NCBI RefSeq assembly: GCF_034259205.1
Contig: NZ_CP139487.1
Location: 2,852,001-2,916,000, forward strand
Direction of reading: 5' to 3'
Source of the DNA: Peredibacter starrii
GTDB lineage: Bacteria > Bdellovibrionota > Bacteriovoracia > Bacteriovoracales > Bacteriovoracaceae
DNA: 64,000 nt
The translations under genes were made by a program, and so were the position numbers. The notes beneath the pieces were generated by a model, which saw only the letters and a program-made list of their open reading frames with translations, was not told the origin of the DNA and made no database searches. Below, one piece after another: positions 7,247-62,763 of the stretch (its first letter is position 1; each line of letters begins with the position of its first letter).

Positions 7247-10200
7247 TGCCCCAAGCTTACTGAAGGATTTTTCTTCATCCATTTATGCATGATGGCCAGG
7301 AGATTATCCGTGTCCACCGGCTTCGTAATATAATCTGTCGCTCCTGCTTCAAGACACTTCTCACGATCTCCCTTCATCGCTTTTGCAGTGAGGGTGATAA
7401 TTGGAAGATCTTTGAACTCCTGCATTGTGCGAATCTCTTGAGTGGCCTCAATTCCACCCATCTCAGGCATCATGATATCCATCAGGATCACATCTACATC
7501 TGGATTCTCTTTTAATTTTTCAATCCCGGCGCGACCATTATCAGCATAAAGAACTTCCATACCGCGTCTCTCTAGAATGACCGTAATGGCAAAGATGTTT
7601 CTCATGTCGTCATCAATCACCAGAACCTTCTTATCATTGAAATCTGCATTTACAGGTAGTACTGGGGCCTCTTCAATGATCTCTACTTTTTCAGGCAAAG
7701 TTTCAATAGGAACACCTTCTTGACCACGGTAATGCACTGGTAGATAGAGTGTGAATGTACTTCCAACTCCGGGTGTACTCTGCACTTCAATGCTACCACC
7801 AAGGAGTCGAGCAATTTGACGGCTGATTGTTAGACCCAAACCAGTCCCACCATACTTACGGTTTGTCGTACCGTCGGCCTGCTGGAAGGCCTCAAAAATC
7901 AGGCTCTGCTTTTCTTTCGGGATACCAATTCCCGTATCAGTTACAGCAAACACCAGTGCCTGCTCACCTTTTACGTTGGCCTGATGAATTTTCAAAGTCA
8001 CCTTACCGTGCTCAGTAAACTTAAAGGCATTAGAAAGAAGATTTTTAAGAATCTGCTGAACTCTCGTTACATCGGTATTCACCACGAGAGTTTTAACTTC
8101 ATCTGTGGCGTCAATCACGAAGCCAATGCCTTTGTGATTTGCAACCGGACGGAAGCTATGCTCGAGGTACTCAGAAATCTCCGGCACTCTCACATCACGA
8201 GGAACGATTGGCATTTTCCCTGCTTCAACTTTCGAAAGATCCAGGATTTCATTAATCAATGCAAGAAGATCACACCCCGAAGAATAGATTGTTTGAGCGA
8301 ACTTCACTTGCTCATCTGTCATATTCGTTTCACGGTTCTCAGATAACATCTTAGATAAAATTAACAAGCTATTCAGCGGAGTTCTAAGCTCGTGGGACAT
8401 ATTGGCCAGGAACTCGGACTTATATTTTGAGATAAGTGAAAGCTGCTCGGCCTTCTCTTCCACTGAGTGAGAGGCAAGCTCCACTTCCTGGTTCTTAATT
8501 TCAAGAAGTTTCGCTTTTTCTTCAAGTTCTTTTGCTTGAGCTTCAAGTTCAGAGTTCGACTTCTTAAGTTCAATAAGAAGTTCTTCTGTTCTCATTGAAG
8601 AAGCGATCATGTTCAATACTACCCCGATACTTGTCACAAGCTGATCAAGGAAGTTGAGGTAGTTATGTGAGAATGAATGGATCGAAGCAAGTTCAATCAC
8701 GGCCTTCACTTCACCCTCGAACAGAATTGGAAGTACAATGATATTTACTGGCTTCGTTTCACCTAAGCTTGATGCCACATAGACATAATCATTTGGTGCT
8801 TTATTTACCAGAATCTTTTTCTTTTCAAATGCACATTGTCCGACCAGGCTTTCGCGTAATTTATAGTGGTTTTGGAAGTTTTTCCTTTCAGTGAAAGCAT
8901 AGCTCGCAATCATTGAAAGAATTGGTTCTGGTTTATTGTCCTGATCCATCAGGAAGAACGTACCTTGTTGGGCATCCACAAGCGGAGTCAACTCAGACAT
9001 AATCAGCTGGGCCACAGAGCTTATTGATCTCTGACCTTGCATCATACTCGCAAATTTAGCGAGGTTTGTTTTTAACCAGTCTTGCTCGTGGTTCTTATCA
9101 GTTGTATCTTTCAAGTTACCAATCATCTGGTTAATATTATCTTTTAGGGCAGCAACCTCACCCTGAGCTTCTACGGTAATTGATCGAGTTAAATCCCCTT
9201 CCGTCACCGCAGTTGATACTTCAGCAATGGCACGGATCTGAGTTGTTAGATTTCCGGCAAGTTGGTTCACGTTGTCAGTCAAATCTTTCCAAGTACCGGC
9301 CGCACCTGGAACTTTCGCTTGTCCACCCAGTTTACCTTCAATACCTACTTCTCTCGCAGTGGTTGTTACCTGATCCGCAAAAGTTCGAAGAGTGTCAGTC
9401 ATGCTGTTAATTGTTTCAGCAAGGGCCGCCACTTCCCCTTTCGCTTCAAGTACGAATTTCTGGTTCAGGTCACCATTTGCGACCGCGGTCACAACTTTTA
9501 CGATACCTCGCACTTGCTTAGTAAGGTTAGATGCCATGAAATTCACGTTATCAGTTAAATCTTTCCAAGTACCGGCCACACCAGGCACACGCGCCTGTGC
9601 TCCAAGTTTACCTTCGATACCTACCTCACGAGCAACCGTCGACACCTGATCCGCAAATGTTCTAAGAGTGTCGGTCATGTTGTTGATCGTCTCCGCAAGG
9701 GCCGCAACTTCACCTTTGGCTTCAAGAACGAATTTCTGGTTCAAGTCACCGTTTGCTACCGCGGTCACAACCTTCACGATACCTCGCACTTGCTTAGTGA
9801 GGTTACCGGCCATGAAGTTCACGTTATCAGTCAGGTCTTTCCAAGTACCAGACACACCTTTTACGTCTGCCTGACCACCTAGTTTTCCTTCGGTACCCAC
9901 TTCTTTCGCCACTCGAGTTACCTCGGCGGCAAATGAGTTCAGCTGATCCACCATGGTATTGATGGTATTTTTAAGTTCGAGGATCTCGCCCTTGGCATCA
10001 ACCGTAATTTTTTGTGATAAGTCACCTTGGGCCACCGCAGTCGTCACCTTGGCGATGTTACGAACTTGCGCAGTCAGGTTACCAGCTAGTGAGTTCACAT
10101 TATCAGTAAGATCTTTCCAAGTACCCGACACGCCTTTCACTTCAGCTTGTCCACCCAGACGACCTTCTGTACCCACTTCTTTCGCCACACGAGTTACCTC

Positions 10201-12711
10201 GCCGGCAAATGTATTGAGCTGATCCACCATGGTGTTGATGGTATTTTTAAGTTCAAGGATCTCGCCTTTAGCATCTACGGTGATTTTTTGTGATAAGTCA
10301 CCTTTCGCTACCGCAGTTGTTACTTTTGCGATGTTACGTACCTGGTTAGTAAGGTTACCCGCCAGAACGTTCACGTTATCAGTCAGATCTTTCCAGGTAC
10401 CAGACACACCTTTTACATCTGCCTGACCACCAAGACGTCCTTCGGTACCCACTTCCTTCGCCACTCGAGTTACCTCGGCAGCAAACGAGTTAAGCTGATC
10501 CACCATTACGTTGATGGTATTTTTCAATTCGTAAATTTCGCCTTTGGCATCTACTGTGATCTTTTGTGATAAGTCACCTTGAGCAACCGCAGTCGTCACC
10601 TTCGCGATGTTACGTACCTGGTTGGTAAGGTTTGATGCAAGTGAGTTCACGTTATCAGTTAGATCTTTCCAAGTACCAGACACGCCTTTTACTTCGGCCT
10701 GACCACCTAACTTACCTTCCGACCCCACTTCTTTCGCCACACGAGTTACCTCGCCGGCGAATGTATTGAGCTGATCCACCATGGTATTGATGGTGTTTTT
10801 AAGTTCTAAGATTTCACCTTTTGCATCTACGGTAATCTTTTGAGACAAGTCACCTTTAGCTACCGCCGTTGTCACCTTCGCAATGTTACGTACCTGATCG
10901 GTAAGGTTTCCAGCTAGACCATTCACATTATCAGTTAGATCTTTCCATGTACCAGACACACCTTTTACATCGGCTTGTCCGCCAAGTTTTCCTTCGGTAC
11001 CCACTTCTTTCGCCACACGAGTCACCTCGGCCGCAAATGAGTTCAGCTGATCCACCATGACGTTAATGGTATTCTTAAGTTCGAAGATTTCACCCTTAGC
11101 ATCTACCGTAATCTTTTGAGACAAGTCACCGTTAGCAACCGCGGTTGTCACTTTCGCGATGTTACGTACTTGGTCAGTTAAGTTACCAGCGAGAACGTTC
11201 ACATTATCAGTCAGGTCTTTCCATGTACCAGAAACACCTTTCACTTCGGCCTGTCCACCCAGTTTTCCTTCTGTCCCCACTTCTTTAGCCACACGAGTTA
11301 CCTCTGCCGCAAATGAGTTCAGCTGATCCACCATGATGTTGATGGTATTTTTTAGTTCTAAGATTTCACCCTTAGCATCTACTGTAATCTTCTGAGAAAG
11401 GTCACCTTTCGCAACCGCCGTTGTTACCTTCGCGATGTTACGTACTTGTGCAGTTAGGTTTCCTGCTAGACCATTCACGTTGTCGGTCAAATCTTTCCAA
11501 GTACCACTCACACCTTTTACATCCGCCTGGCCACCCAGCTTACCTTCACTACCTACTTCTTTCGCCACACGAGTAACCTCGGCAGAGAATGAACGAAGTG
11601 TGTCCACCATGGTGTTGATGGTATTTTTAAGTTCAAGAATCTCACCTCGGGCATCTACGGTAATTTTCTGTGACAAGTCACCGTTTGCAACCGCCGTTGT
11701 TACTTTGGCGATGTTACGTACCTGAGCTGTTAGATTGTTCGCCAGACCATTCACATTATCAGTTAGATCTTTCCATGTACCGGACACACCTTTTACATCT
11801 GCCTGACCACCAAGACGGCCTTCTGTACCCACTTCTTTTGCCACACGAGTAACCTCGGCCGCAAAAGATGAAAGTTGATCCACCATGACGTTGATGGTTG
11901 TTTTTAGTTCATAAATTTCCCCACGGGCATCTACGGTAATTTTCTGAGAAAGATCACCTTTAGCAACGGCAGTTGTCACCTTTGCAATGTTTCGCACCTG
12001 AGCTGTAAGGTTACCGGCGAGAACGTTCACGTTATCTGTCAGATCTTTCCAGGTTCCAGAAACACCTTTTACTTCGGCCTGACCACCCAGCTTCCCTTCA
12101 GTACCCACCTCTTTCGCCACACGAGTAACCTCGCTCGCGAAAGAGTTCAGCTGGTCCACCATGGTATTTACTGTAATACCAATTCGCGCAAATTCACCTT
12201 TTAGTGGCTGACCTTCGATCTCCATCACCATCTTTTGTGAAAGGTCACCCTTTGCCACCGCTGTAATTACTCTCGCGGCTTCAGTTGTTGGCTGAACCAG
12301 ATCGGTAATTAAGGTGTTAACTGAATCAACACTTGTAGACCATGCTCCTTTAATAGAGCCGATGGTCACACGCTCAGTCATCTTTCCTTCTTTACCAACG
12401 ATGCGACCCACGCGAACAAATTCGTTCGCCATATTATAATTAATTTCATTGATATCATTGAGAACATCGGCGATATCGCCTAGAAGAGTATCGTTCTCCA
12501 TCTCCAGACGCATCGAAAACTCTCCGCTGCGAATGGCCTTAACCATAAGAAGGATTTGCTTTAATTGTTCTCTTTCAGATTCGTCCTGATAAGCACGAGA
12601 AGTACGTCGCACGACTTTAGAAGAGAAATCATCATTACGTTTTCTTGAAACGACAGAAGGAGTAACGTTAACTTTCTTGCTTGATTTTGTACTAGAGGTT
12701 TTCGTTCTCAC
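7243..12711 (-). CDS. Giant multi-HAMP hybrid histidine kinase
   Basis: From the GTG at 12711, which follows AGGAGT at good spacing, the protein is about 1822 residues; an upstream in-frame TTG at 12750 has no such site. It has no membrane segment. One divergent N-terminal HAMP is followed by a degenerate unit beginning [11 protein letters not shown] and eleven 92-residue units beginning [11 protein letters not shown], about 13 HAMP units in all. Then come GAF (about 1230-1370), a coiled coil, HisKA with His about 1440 in [12 protein letters not shown], HATPase ([13 protein letters not shown]) and a C-terminal receiver with Asp about 1745 ([11 protein letters not shown]). The architecture matches fungal group III (Nik1-type) osmosensing kinases and related bacterial soluble kinases. 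The gene is followed by a coupled second kinase, so the two likely form one phosphorelay. Confidence 0.93.
9022..12057 (-). repeat. Eleven tandem 276-bp HAMP-coding repeats
   Basis: Each unit encodes 92 residues from [11 protein letters not shown] to about KGVS. Units 1-8 are nearly identical in protein, alternating VLAG, GLAG, SLAG or SLAS variants; units 9 and 10 (FMAG and FMAS types) and 11 diverge. At DNA level the copies differ at many third codon positions although the protein is almost invariant, so selection on protein rather than very recent duplication keeps them alike. Copy number is likely to vary between strains, and assembly collapse is a risk here. Confidence 0.95.
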
Positions 12712-61720: not shown

Positions 61721-61745
61721 AAAAAGGGGAGAATTTCTTCTCCCC
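61721..61745 (-). terminator. Terminator of the small-peptide transcript
   Basis: GGGGAGAA (61726-61733) and TTCTCCCC (61738-61745) form an 8-bp stem with a 4-nt loop; on the minus strand five T residues follow (61725-61721). It begins 9 nt after the stop of the 29-residue ORF, which supports a dedicated short transcript. Confidence 0.85.
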
Positions 61746-61753
61746 TCCCAATC

Positions 61754-61843
61754 CTAGAACCACTCCATTAATAACCTTAAAATTGTTGTTAGCAATTTCA
61801 AAATCTGGATAATAAGTTCTAGCATTTTCAACGCTTTGAGCAT
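61754..61843 (-). CDS. 29-residue amphipathic peptide, TisB-like candidate toxin
   Basis: The ORF begins at ATG 61843 with a perfect AGGAGG (61854-61849) 5 nt upstream and ends at TAG 61754, followed by a terminator. The peptide opens MLKALKMLELI and ends LLMEWF. Its polar residues lie at 6/13/20/27 (K, Q, T, E) and 9/16/23 (E, K, R), a heptad stripe on an otherwise hydrophobic helix. E. coli TisB, also 29 residues, has the same design and a similar ILKL stretch. Insertion into the inner membrane is the expected action. An opposing small RNA on the plus strand can pair with codons 2-7. A frame-shifted 54-codon alternative (61704-61868) lacks a ribosome site. Confidence 0.65.
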   Translation of the reverse strand: MLKALKMLELIIQILKLLTTILRLLMEWF

Positions 61844-61893
61844 CCCTGCCTCCTAAGGTCGCCTTCATTGGCCATAGGTGCTCTTAGCTTTGA

Positions 61894-61917
61894 TCATTTA
61901 TAAAATCGTGTTAGCAT
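61894..61917 (-). CDS. 7-residue leader ORF upstream of the small peptide
   Basis: ATG at 61917 with an ideal AGGAGGG (61930-61924) 6 nt upstream encodes MLTRFYK and a stop. It overlaps by 1 nt another ATG-led 10-codon frame. Such leader ORFs occur in tisAB-like mRNAs, where they affect ribosome loading. Whether it is translated is unknown. Confidence 0.35.
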   Translation of the reverse strand: MLTRFYK

Positions 61918-62004
61918 CAATTACCCTCCTAAATCCCGGTTTGTTAGGCCGTTTAGGAATTTTCAATGCTTTGAAACCCCTCTATCACGAGGGGTTTTTT
62001 ATTT
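61913..62004 (+). ncRNA. Putative antitoxin small RNA opposite the peptide leader
   Basis: A strong plus-oriented terminator at 61974-62004 has no plus-strand gene before it, so it should end a short RNA. The 5' end is uncertain; TAAAAT at 61901-61906 is a possible -10, without a good -35. Just before the terminator stem, ATTTTCAATGCTTTGA (61960-61975) can pair with the peptide mRNA over 16 nt (15 Watson-Crick pairs and one G-U) at codons 2-7, and the RNA is also antisense to the leader with its AGGAGGG. Geometry resembles IstR-1, OhsC or OrzO antitoxins. Confidence 0.42.
61974..62004 (+). terminator. Terminator of the putative small RNA
   Basis: AAACCCCTC (61974-61982) and GAGGGGTTT (61989-61997), 6-nt loop, then TTTATTT. 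The T tract is good on plus and poor on minus (TTTC), although it might also stop read-through from the gene at 62062. Confidence 0.8.
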
Positions 62005-62061
62005 GGAAGAGTTGCTTGATTTCATGGGATATTTTTTCGGATTTGAAGCTGAGTCTAGTAA

Positions 62062-62763
62062 CTAAATCCCGAGTGCAAGACCGGTTTTATTACCCTGGAT
62101 TTGGGCCGGACGAGCGTTAACTAACCCCTCCAGAAAAGTCAGGGCAGCGCGAGCATCTACAGGGGCCTGGTATTTGCCGGAAACTTCCAGGATACAAACA
62201 TCACGGAAGGTCCAAACTTCGACCGAGGGCTTCTTAATAAGTGGACTTTTTTGGGCCTGGGCAGGGGTCAGCTTAAGCTTCCAAGAAATGGAACTGACGT
62301 CAACACGACGAAGGTTTGAAAGATCAGGTAAATCAACTCCCACCATGCGAGCAAGATCAGCATGCTCAGGTCGAAAATCATCTCCCGGGGCCTTAAACGA
62401 ACAAGAGTTCGAGTAACTTAAACCGTAGTTTACATCTTCCTCGCACTTAAACTCTCCATTCGTAGAGGCAGAAAGCTTGCGATAGATCGTCTCATCGATA
62501 GGTAGACTTCTTTGAGTGCGGAACTTAAGAGTCAGTTCATCCCCTTTTTGGGAACGGATAAAACGAAGAATAAGACCCAGGTCATTTAGGCCTTTTAGTC
62601 CTTTCTCAAAGAAAGAAATCATCTCTCTTTCTTCTTTCTCTCGAGGGATACTTTCAAGCACGTCACAAGAGTAGAGAATTTTCGCCTCTCCCCCTGAAAT
62701 GTAAGAGACCTGTGCAAGCACAGGTCCCGTGATGAAAATAGCTAAGAGTAAAAGTTTTTTCAT
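62062..62763 (-). CDS. Secreted protein of unknown function
   Basis: A 233-residue protein with a signal peptide (MKKLLLLAIFITGPVLA). The mature part has four Cys (LYSCDVL, FKCEED, SNSCSF, DVCILE), suggesting disulphides. The C terminus reads GNKTGLALGI. No family is recognised. It starts 3 nt after the gene at 62767 ends, so the two are cotranscribed and may form a secreted pair. Confidence 0.7.
   Translation of the reverse strand: MKKLLLLAIFITGPVLAQVSYISGGEAKILYSCDVLESIPREKEEREMISFFEKGLKGLNDLGLILRFIRSQKGDELTLKFRTQRSLPIDETIYRKLSASTNGEFKCEEDVNYGLSYSNSCSFKAPGDDFRPEHADLARMVGVDLPDLSNLRRVDVSSISWKLKLTPAQAQKSPLIKKPSVEVWTFRDVCILEVSGKYQAPVDARAALTFLEGLVNARPAQIQGNKTGLALGI

Follow-up and report, generated by a model that had tools for sequence, protein, structure and literature searches.

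The type I toxin-antitoxin systems TisB/IstR-1, ShoB/OhsC and ZorO/OrzO comprise a short hydrophobic peptide (29 residues in TisB and Zor) and a divergently encoded small RNA, with limited complementarity of about 18 nt and, in Zor, tandem copies (PMC3919570, PMC8309996). The antitoxins of the divergent E. coli systems pair in a long 5′ UTR and overlap neither the start site nor the coding sequence (PMC4147584); in zorO, the pairing site lies 73-91 nt upstream (PMC3919570). The 285-base cassette described here occupies positions 61721-62005 of the 64-kb window, the whole stretch of DNA analysed, and resembles these systems in peptide length, divergent small RNA, limited complementarity and the occurrence of closely spaced copies. 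Even though an initial annotation ascribed to it the same geometry as TisB, ShoB and Zor, the likeness holds for the divergent layout only. Its predicted antitoxin pairs not with the 5′ UTR but with codons 1-9, with codons 18-20 (in family 1) and with the stretch behind the stop codon.

According to a 2025 study, reports of type I systems before its own cyanobacterial case had been confined to Proteobacteria, Firmicutes and Tenericutes (PMC12390103). The open literature searched contains no report of a type I system from the group of Bdellovibrio relatives. A claim to the first system in the phylum is nevertheless hedged, because older taxonomy places Bdellovibrio relatives within the Proteobacteria. 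The letter-for-letter co-change of peptide gene and small RNA in dozens of copies points to the cassette being, very probably, a type I toxin-antitoxin module of a new family.

Distribution and dispersal of the cassette

The cassette was found in the single-contig, 4.15-Mb genome of a relative of predatory bacteria. Searches of 129 genomes of the family by blastn gave, in several of them, matches bounded by the cassette borders (query 162-444, corresponding to window 61721-62003), and separate matches confined to the flanking dioxygenase region. The terminator-to-terminator unit recurs at unrelated, mostly intergenic sites across the Bacteriovoracaceae (Bdellovibrionota), and a profile built from 21 copies matches copies or fragments in 26 of the 129 genomes. 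The first alignment held these 21 copies, and the set comprises 35 intact copies from about eight genera once divergent relatives are added. All 35 keep the 22-29-residue hydrophobic ORF, the Shine-Dalgarno sequence, the divergent small-RNA promoter and the small-RNA terminator. Grouped by peptide start, 25 are ML peptides (mostly MLK) and the other 10 begin with MED, MEE, MDE or MDD. The named carriers are Bacteriovoracaceae MAGs, among them Bacteriovorax sp. and a MAG that bears the label Bacteriovorax stolpii.

Some genomes have several copies (G012, G007), with a few hundred bases between neighbouring ones. The proteins flanking different copies are, with the exception of a few pairs, unrelated. 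The genes on either side of the window copy are about 140-160 bp apart in G098, G086, G093, G082 and G103, with no module between them, while G098 and G081 have it at another place. The module-bounded matches, the unrelated flanks and the module-free sites in relatives indicate, on the sequence evidence, that the module is an acquired unit that disperses.

Plasmids gave no module matches, an exact-pattern search of viral contigs returned no module, and a phage collection gave short scattered matches only, none of them spanning it. In the window, Rfam detected a single tRNA and nothing else. A phylum-wide profile search found strong matches only within the family; matches outside it, at ~1e-3, were fragments only, and no convincing antisense element was seen at those of their loci that were scanned. 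One copy (L033:6499-8089) is split in its 5′ UTR by an insertion of ~1.3 kb with both halves retained; this insertion is bounded by terminal inverted repeats of 22 nt each (CAGGGGAAACGCATCTTAATTT) and has duplicated 9 bp of its target (ACCTTAGGA). Elsewhere in the window, positions 9266-12165 hold a 276-bp repeat in about 10 tandem copies; the region is apparently coding and looks like a candidate multi-HAMP protein on the minus strand.

Peptide, small RNA and their contacts

The initial annotation described a 29-codon frame on the minus strand with AGGAGG 5 nt from its ATG, a terminator behind its stop codon and a strong terminator on the plus strand, and all of these were found where it had placed them (Table 1). 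Related genomes keep the frame, the Shine-Dalgarno sequence, the terminators and, as pairing, the 16-nt match that it had reported.

Table 1. Features of the cassette, in window coordinates
Feature	Position	Strand	Remark
Toxin-like ORF MLKALKMLELIIQILKLLTTILRLLMEWF, 29 aa, ATG start	61754-61843	-	Intact 22-29-codon frame in 35 copies
Shine-Dalgarno AGGAGG, 5 nt from ATG	61849-61854	-	Conserved
Leader hairpin GCC-AATGAA-GGC, upstream of Shine-Dalgarno	61861-61872	-	Stem co-variation
Toxin mRNA terminator	61728-61745	-	Conserved in alignment
Small-RNA promoter -35, TTGATC, 16-bp spacer	61890-61895	+	
Small-RNA extended -10, TGTTAGCAT	61909-61917	+	TGnTAnnnT at the corresponding place in 35/35 copies
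Predicted antitoxin small RNA, ~80 nt	61923-62004	+	Fold z-score -3.9 (window); predicted ends
Small-RNA terminator	61973-61998, then T-run	+	96.8% of cells paired in family-1 alignment
Antisense element 1, unpaired linker before terminator	61960-61975	+	
Target site 1, codons 2-7	61824-61839	-	
Antisense element 2, apical loop UUGUUAG	61941-61947	+	
Target site 2, 7-nt apical loop CUAACAA of mRNA hairpin, codons 18-20	61786-61792	-	
Antisense element 3, 5′ strand of small-RNA hairpin	61924-61932	+	
Target site 3, directly after stop codon, extends into toxin terminator stem	61743-61751	-	

The ATG frame, of 27-29 codons, is intact in 21/21 of the first aligned copies. Among the 25 family-1 copies, codons 2-8 have a pN/pS of 0.31 and codons 9-26 one of 0.46; by these values the peptide is constrained as a protein, to a moderate degree. 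Amphipathicity is significant for the window peptide (P 0.014), not for every family member, and neither this peptide nor the family members scanned reach the cut-off of any Pfam, NCBIfam or PADLOC family. The peptide is probably a membrane-active toxin. The leader hairpin of its mRNA has 96.2% of cells paired and 30 cells with both sides changed (0/500 shuffles), and its hexaloop A[AC]UGAN (A[AC]TGAN in DNA) is nearly fixed. A conserved sigma70-like promoter for the toxin was not found, the mean best score being 8.34 against 8.46 in shuffles.

The small-RNA gene has, in most of the 35 copies, a TTGA-type -35 spaced 16 bp from the extended -10. The predicted fold of its RNA consists of a 5′ hairpin, an unpaired linker and the terminator. 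With the divergent small RNAs, which align poorly, RNAalifold for that reason recovered the terminator in part only.

Three antisense elements of the small RNA match three sites in the toxin mRNA. The 16-nt match at site 1 comprises 15 identical letters and one G-U-compatible change, co-varies across copies and, in its conserved form, spans codons 1-9. Its score is 32.9. For the 61 small ATG ORFs of the 64-kb window that have a Shine-Dalgarno sequence and were tested, the 95th percentile is 19.0, and this ORF is the only one of the 61 with a start-region match of at least 24 at the right upstream distance. The site-1 duplex has a mean of -22.7 kcal/mol for cognate and -13.2 for non-cognate partners in 21 copies. 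Duplex folding was limited to set elements, as unrestricted folding is misleading because the terminators pair with one another.

Permutation of cognate pairing in 35 copies gives z values of 18.8, 5.7 and 15.7 for sites 1, 2 and 3, a measure that ignores relatedness, whereas the tree and the mispaired-site controls take it into account. Related copies have both elements in common, and changes were therefore mapped on a tree made from the remainder of the module. Co-changes on the same branch and at the same site number 43 for site 1, compared with a mean of 10 and a largest value of 17 for mispaired sites. Site 2 has 9 co-changes compared with 0.33 for mispaired sites, and 9/9 of the small-RNA changes coincide with a change in the mRNA. 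The variants CUAGCAA, CUAGUAA, CUAGCCA, CUUGUAA and CUCGUAA each occur on both sides within one copy. The 7-nt loop at site 2 co-varies alone, its flanks not matching, and the mRNA stem around it co-varies as well; in family 1 this site is probably a kissing loop within the coding sequence. The alignment used to test sites 2 and 3 was also the one on which they had first been noticed, and the ten divergent copies come nearest to an independent test. In these copies peptide and RNA sequence are quite different and the same contacts are kept, with a z of 6.0 for site 3.

A third peptide family of 24-27 residues (MEDFIRVLTLV...LQL type) has the same leader hairpin, Shine-Dalgarno sequence and terminator, often in tandem. 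It occurs at L181 (1106, 4221, 4581, 4943), L182, L183, L184, L187, L188, L193, L205 and L206, and no adjacent antisense element was found at these loci. The leader in L205 can pair with its own start region. At L181:3919-3946, beside a hairpin, 28 nt nearly match the start region of four toxins in tandem, possibly as one antitoxin RNA common to the array.

Proposed mechanism, alternatives and origin

We infer the following course of transcription, contact, RNase III cleavage and toxicity. A small RNA of ~80 nt would be made from the plus strand via the conserved extended -10 promoter and would bind the divergently encoded mRNA of the 22-29-residue hydrophobic peptide. In family 1, the first contact would probably be a kissing complex, in which the 7-nt loop of the small RNA meets the mRNA loop, likewise of 7 nt, at codons 18-20. 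From there, pairing would extend, on one side between the linker and codons 1-8 beside the start codon, and on the other between the 5′ part of the small RNA and the post-stop stretch. With the start site blocked and the coding region closed into a duplex, translation would stop, and the duplex may be cleaved by RNase III. Once the small RNA is exhausted, the peptide would be made and would probably damage the membrane. Points that weigh against this reading are that neither a conserved toxin promoter nor a peptide family at its cut-off was found, that only some members are significantly amphipathic, that the third peptide family shares the leader hairpin but has no antisense element beside it, and that remnant L102 has a frame but no recognisable small RNA.

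The copies that have decayed bear on the nature of the peptide. Remnants fused at site 1 (the second copy of L096; L100, L042, L043) or at site 3 (L103, L037 1242-1314) have lost the small RNA together with the toxin start or body. L050, L101 and L102 have lost the Shine-Dalgarno sequence or the frame; in L102 the frame is intact, with no recognisable small RNA and no Shine-Dalgarno sequence. In families 1 and 2 no intact start with frame was found without a small RNA, among remnants that are few, and small-RNA genes persist without a toxin in L038 and L047. The small RNA could silence by pairing a peptide that is a regulatory small membrane protein and not a toxin, and the moderate protein constraint (pN/pS 0.31-0.46) would suit such a peptide. 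We regard this as unlikely, because the patchy distribution, the dispersed and clustered copies and the 22-29-residue hydrophobic peptide fit an addiction-type toxin better, and because the start site or frame is gone whenever the antitoxin is gone whereas antitoxin genes without a toxin exist.

The remnant fusions at sites 1 and 3 also show that the repeats do recombine, which would be in line with gene conversion between direct repeats, and not RNA pairing, keeping the element pairs alike. However, where letters differ between the two elements, G-U-compatible differences outnumber A-C ones by 58 to 18 overall (29:14, 3:2 and 26:2 at sites 1, 2 and 3), an excess to be expected if a plus-strand RNA pairs with a minus-strand mRNA, but not under gene conversion. 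Moreover, the lone 7-nt loop co-varies between non-matching flanks, and a plus-strand promoter and terminator are conserved around the elements, all of which makes gene conversion a very improbable explanation. That the cassette is a functionless dispersed intergenic repeat (REP or MITE-like), or merely the terminator of the gene at 62062 as the initial annotation had also considered, is scarcely credible: it is multi-copy and intergenic with a hairpin at each end, but it has a frame under purifying selection, a Shine-Dalgarno sequence, a promoter and co-variation, the module itself showed neither a terminal repeat nor a target duplication, the minus strand has only three T after 61973-62004, and the module is absent beside orthologues of the 62062 gene in related genomes.

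In the toxin-antitoxin module the three contacts are collinear, which suggests, without proving it, that the small-RNA gene is a shortened, backwards-read copy of the toxin gene. We tentatively propose that the antitoxin gene was born from a tandem copy of the toxin gene that was shortened and read from the opposite strand, and that later repeated duplication gave diverging, partly self-specific toxin-antitoxin pairs in these relatives of predatory bacteria. An antitoxin of that origin may be a miniature collinear antisense RNA contacting the start, middle and end of its mRNA, a view held with similar reserve. The module offers RNA contacts supported by co-variation, including a probable kissing loop inside a coding sequence. 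Its paralogues in one genome lend themselves directly to testing how the specificity of antitoxins diverges and whether an antitoxin can arise from its own toxin gene, and pairing co-variation can detect type I systems whose peptides have little sequence in common.

Relation to known type I systems

The module has two hallmarks of the type I kind: a gene for a small hydrophobic peptide that has a translation start and is conserved at the protein level, and a separate complementary small-RNA gene with a promoter in 35/35 copies and with pairing that co-variation indicates to be under selection. The kind is also marked by toxicity of the expressed peptide, relieved by an RNA that blocks translation or stability of the mRNA, and such behaviour is predicted for the module. 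The initial proposal of a type I system with a 29-codon frame and a divergent small RNA pairing at codons 2-7 is supported by conservation and co-variation. Its description of the peptide as TisB-like stands as a resemblance only. Membership of the TisB family (Pfam PF13939, NCBIfam TIGR04459) is not supported: of the members scanned individually, those that match the Pfam profile reach 11.5-15.4 bits against a cut-off of 25, and the window peptide has no match to either profile. A standby site in the 5′ UTR away from the start codon, as in TisB/IstR, was not found, the strong conserved site being site 1. The LexA box has the motif TTACN3GTAA; no such site with at most one mismatch lies within 61721-62005, although this general motif may not be the LexA box of the genus.

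The par locus of pAD1 (Fst, Enterococcus) is similar in that complementarity stems from short direct repeats with opposite directions of transcription, pairing starts between loops with a U-turn motif and the start site is covered (PMC7472228); here, the YUNR motif is present in 23 of the 25 family-1 loops. In contrast, the par genes are convergent and their common bidirectional terminator supplies the kissing loop, whereas the genes of the module are divergent with one terminator each, and its putative kissing loops belong to an internal hairpin of the small RNA and to a hairpin of the coding sequence. The PXXXG motif of par/Fst is absent from the module peptides. Ibs/Sib of E. coli likewise forms repeated short chromosomal modules, and Sib, when it pairs, covers the start site and the coding sequence (PMC4147584). 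However, Sib overlaps ibs on the same DNA, while the RNA of the module is encoded beside the toxin and has shortened, non-overlapping antisense pieces. Judged by its predicted features, the module combines a TisB/IstR-type layout with par/Fst-type pairing and, by the tests made, is a member of neither.
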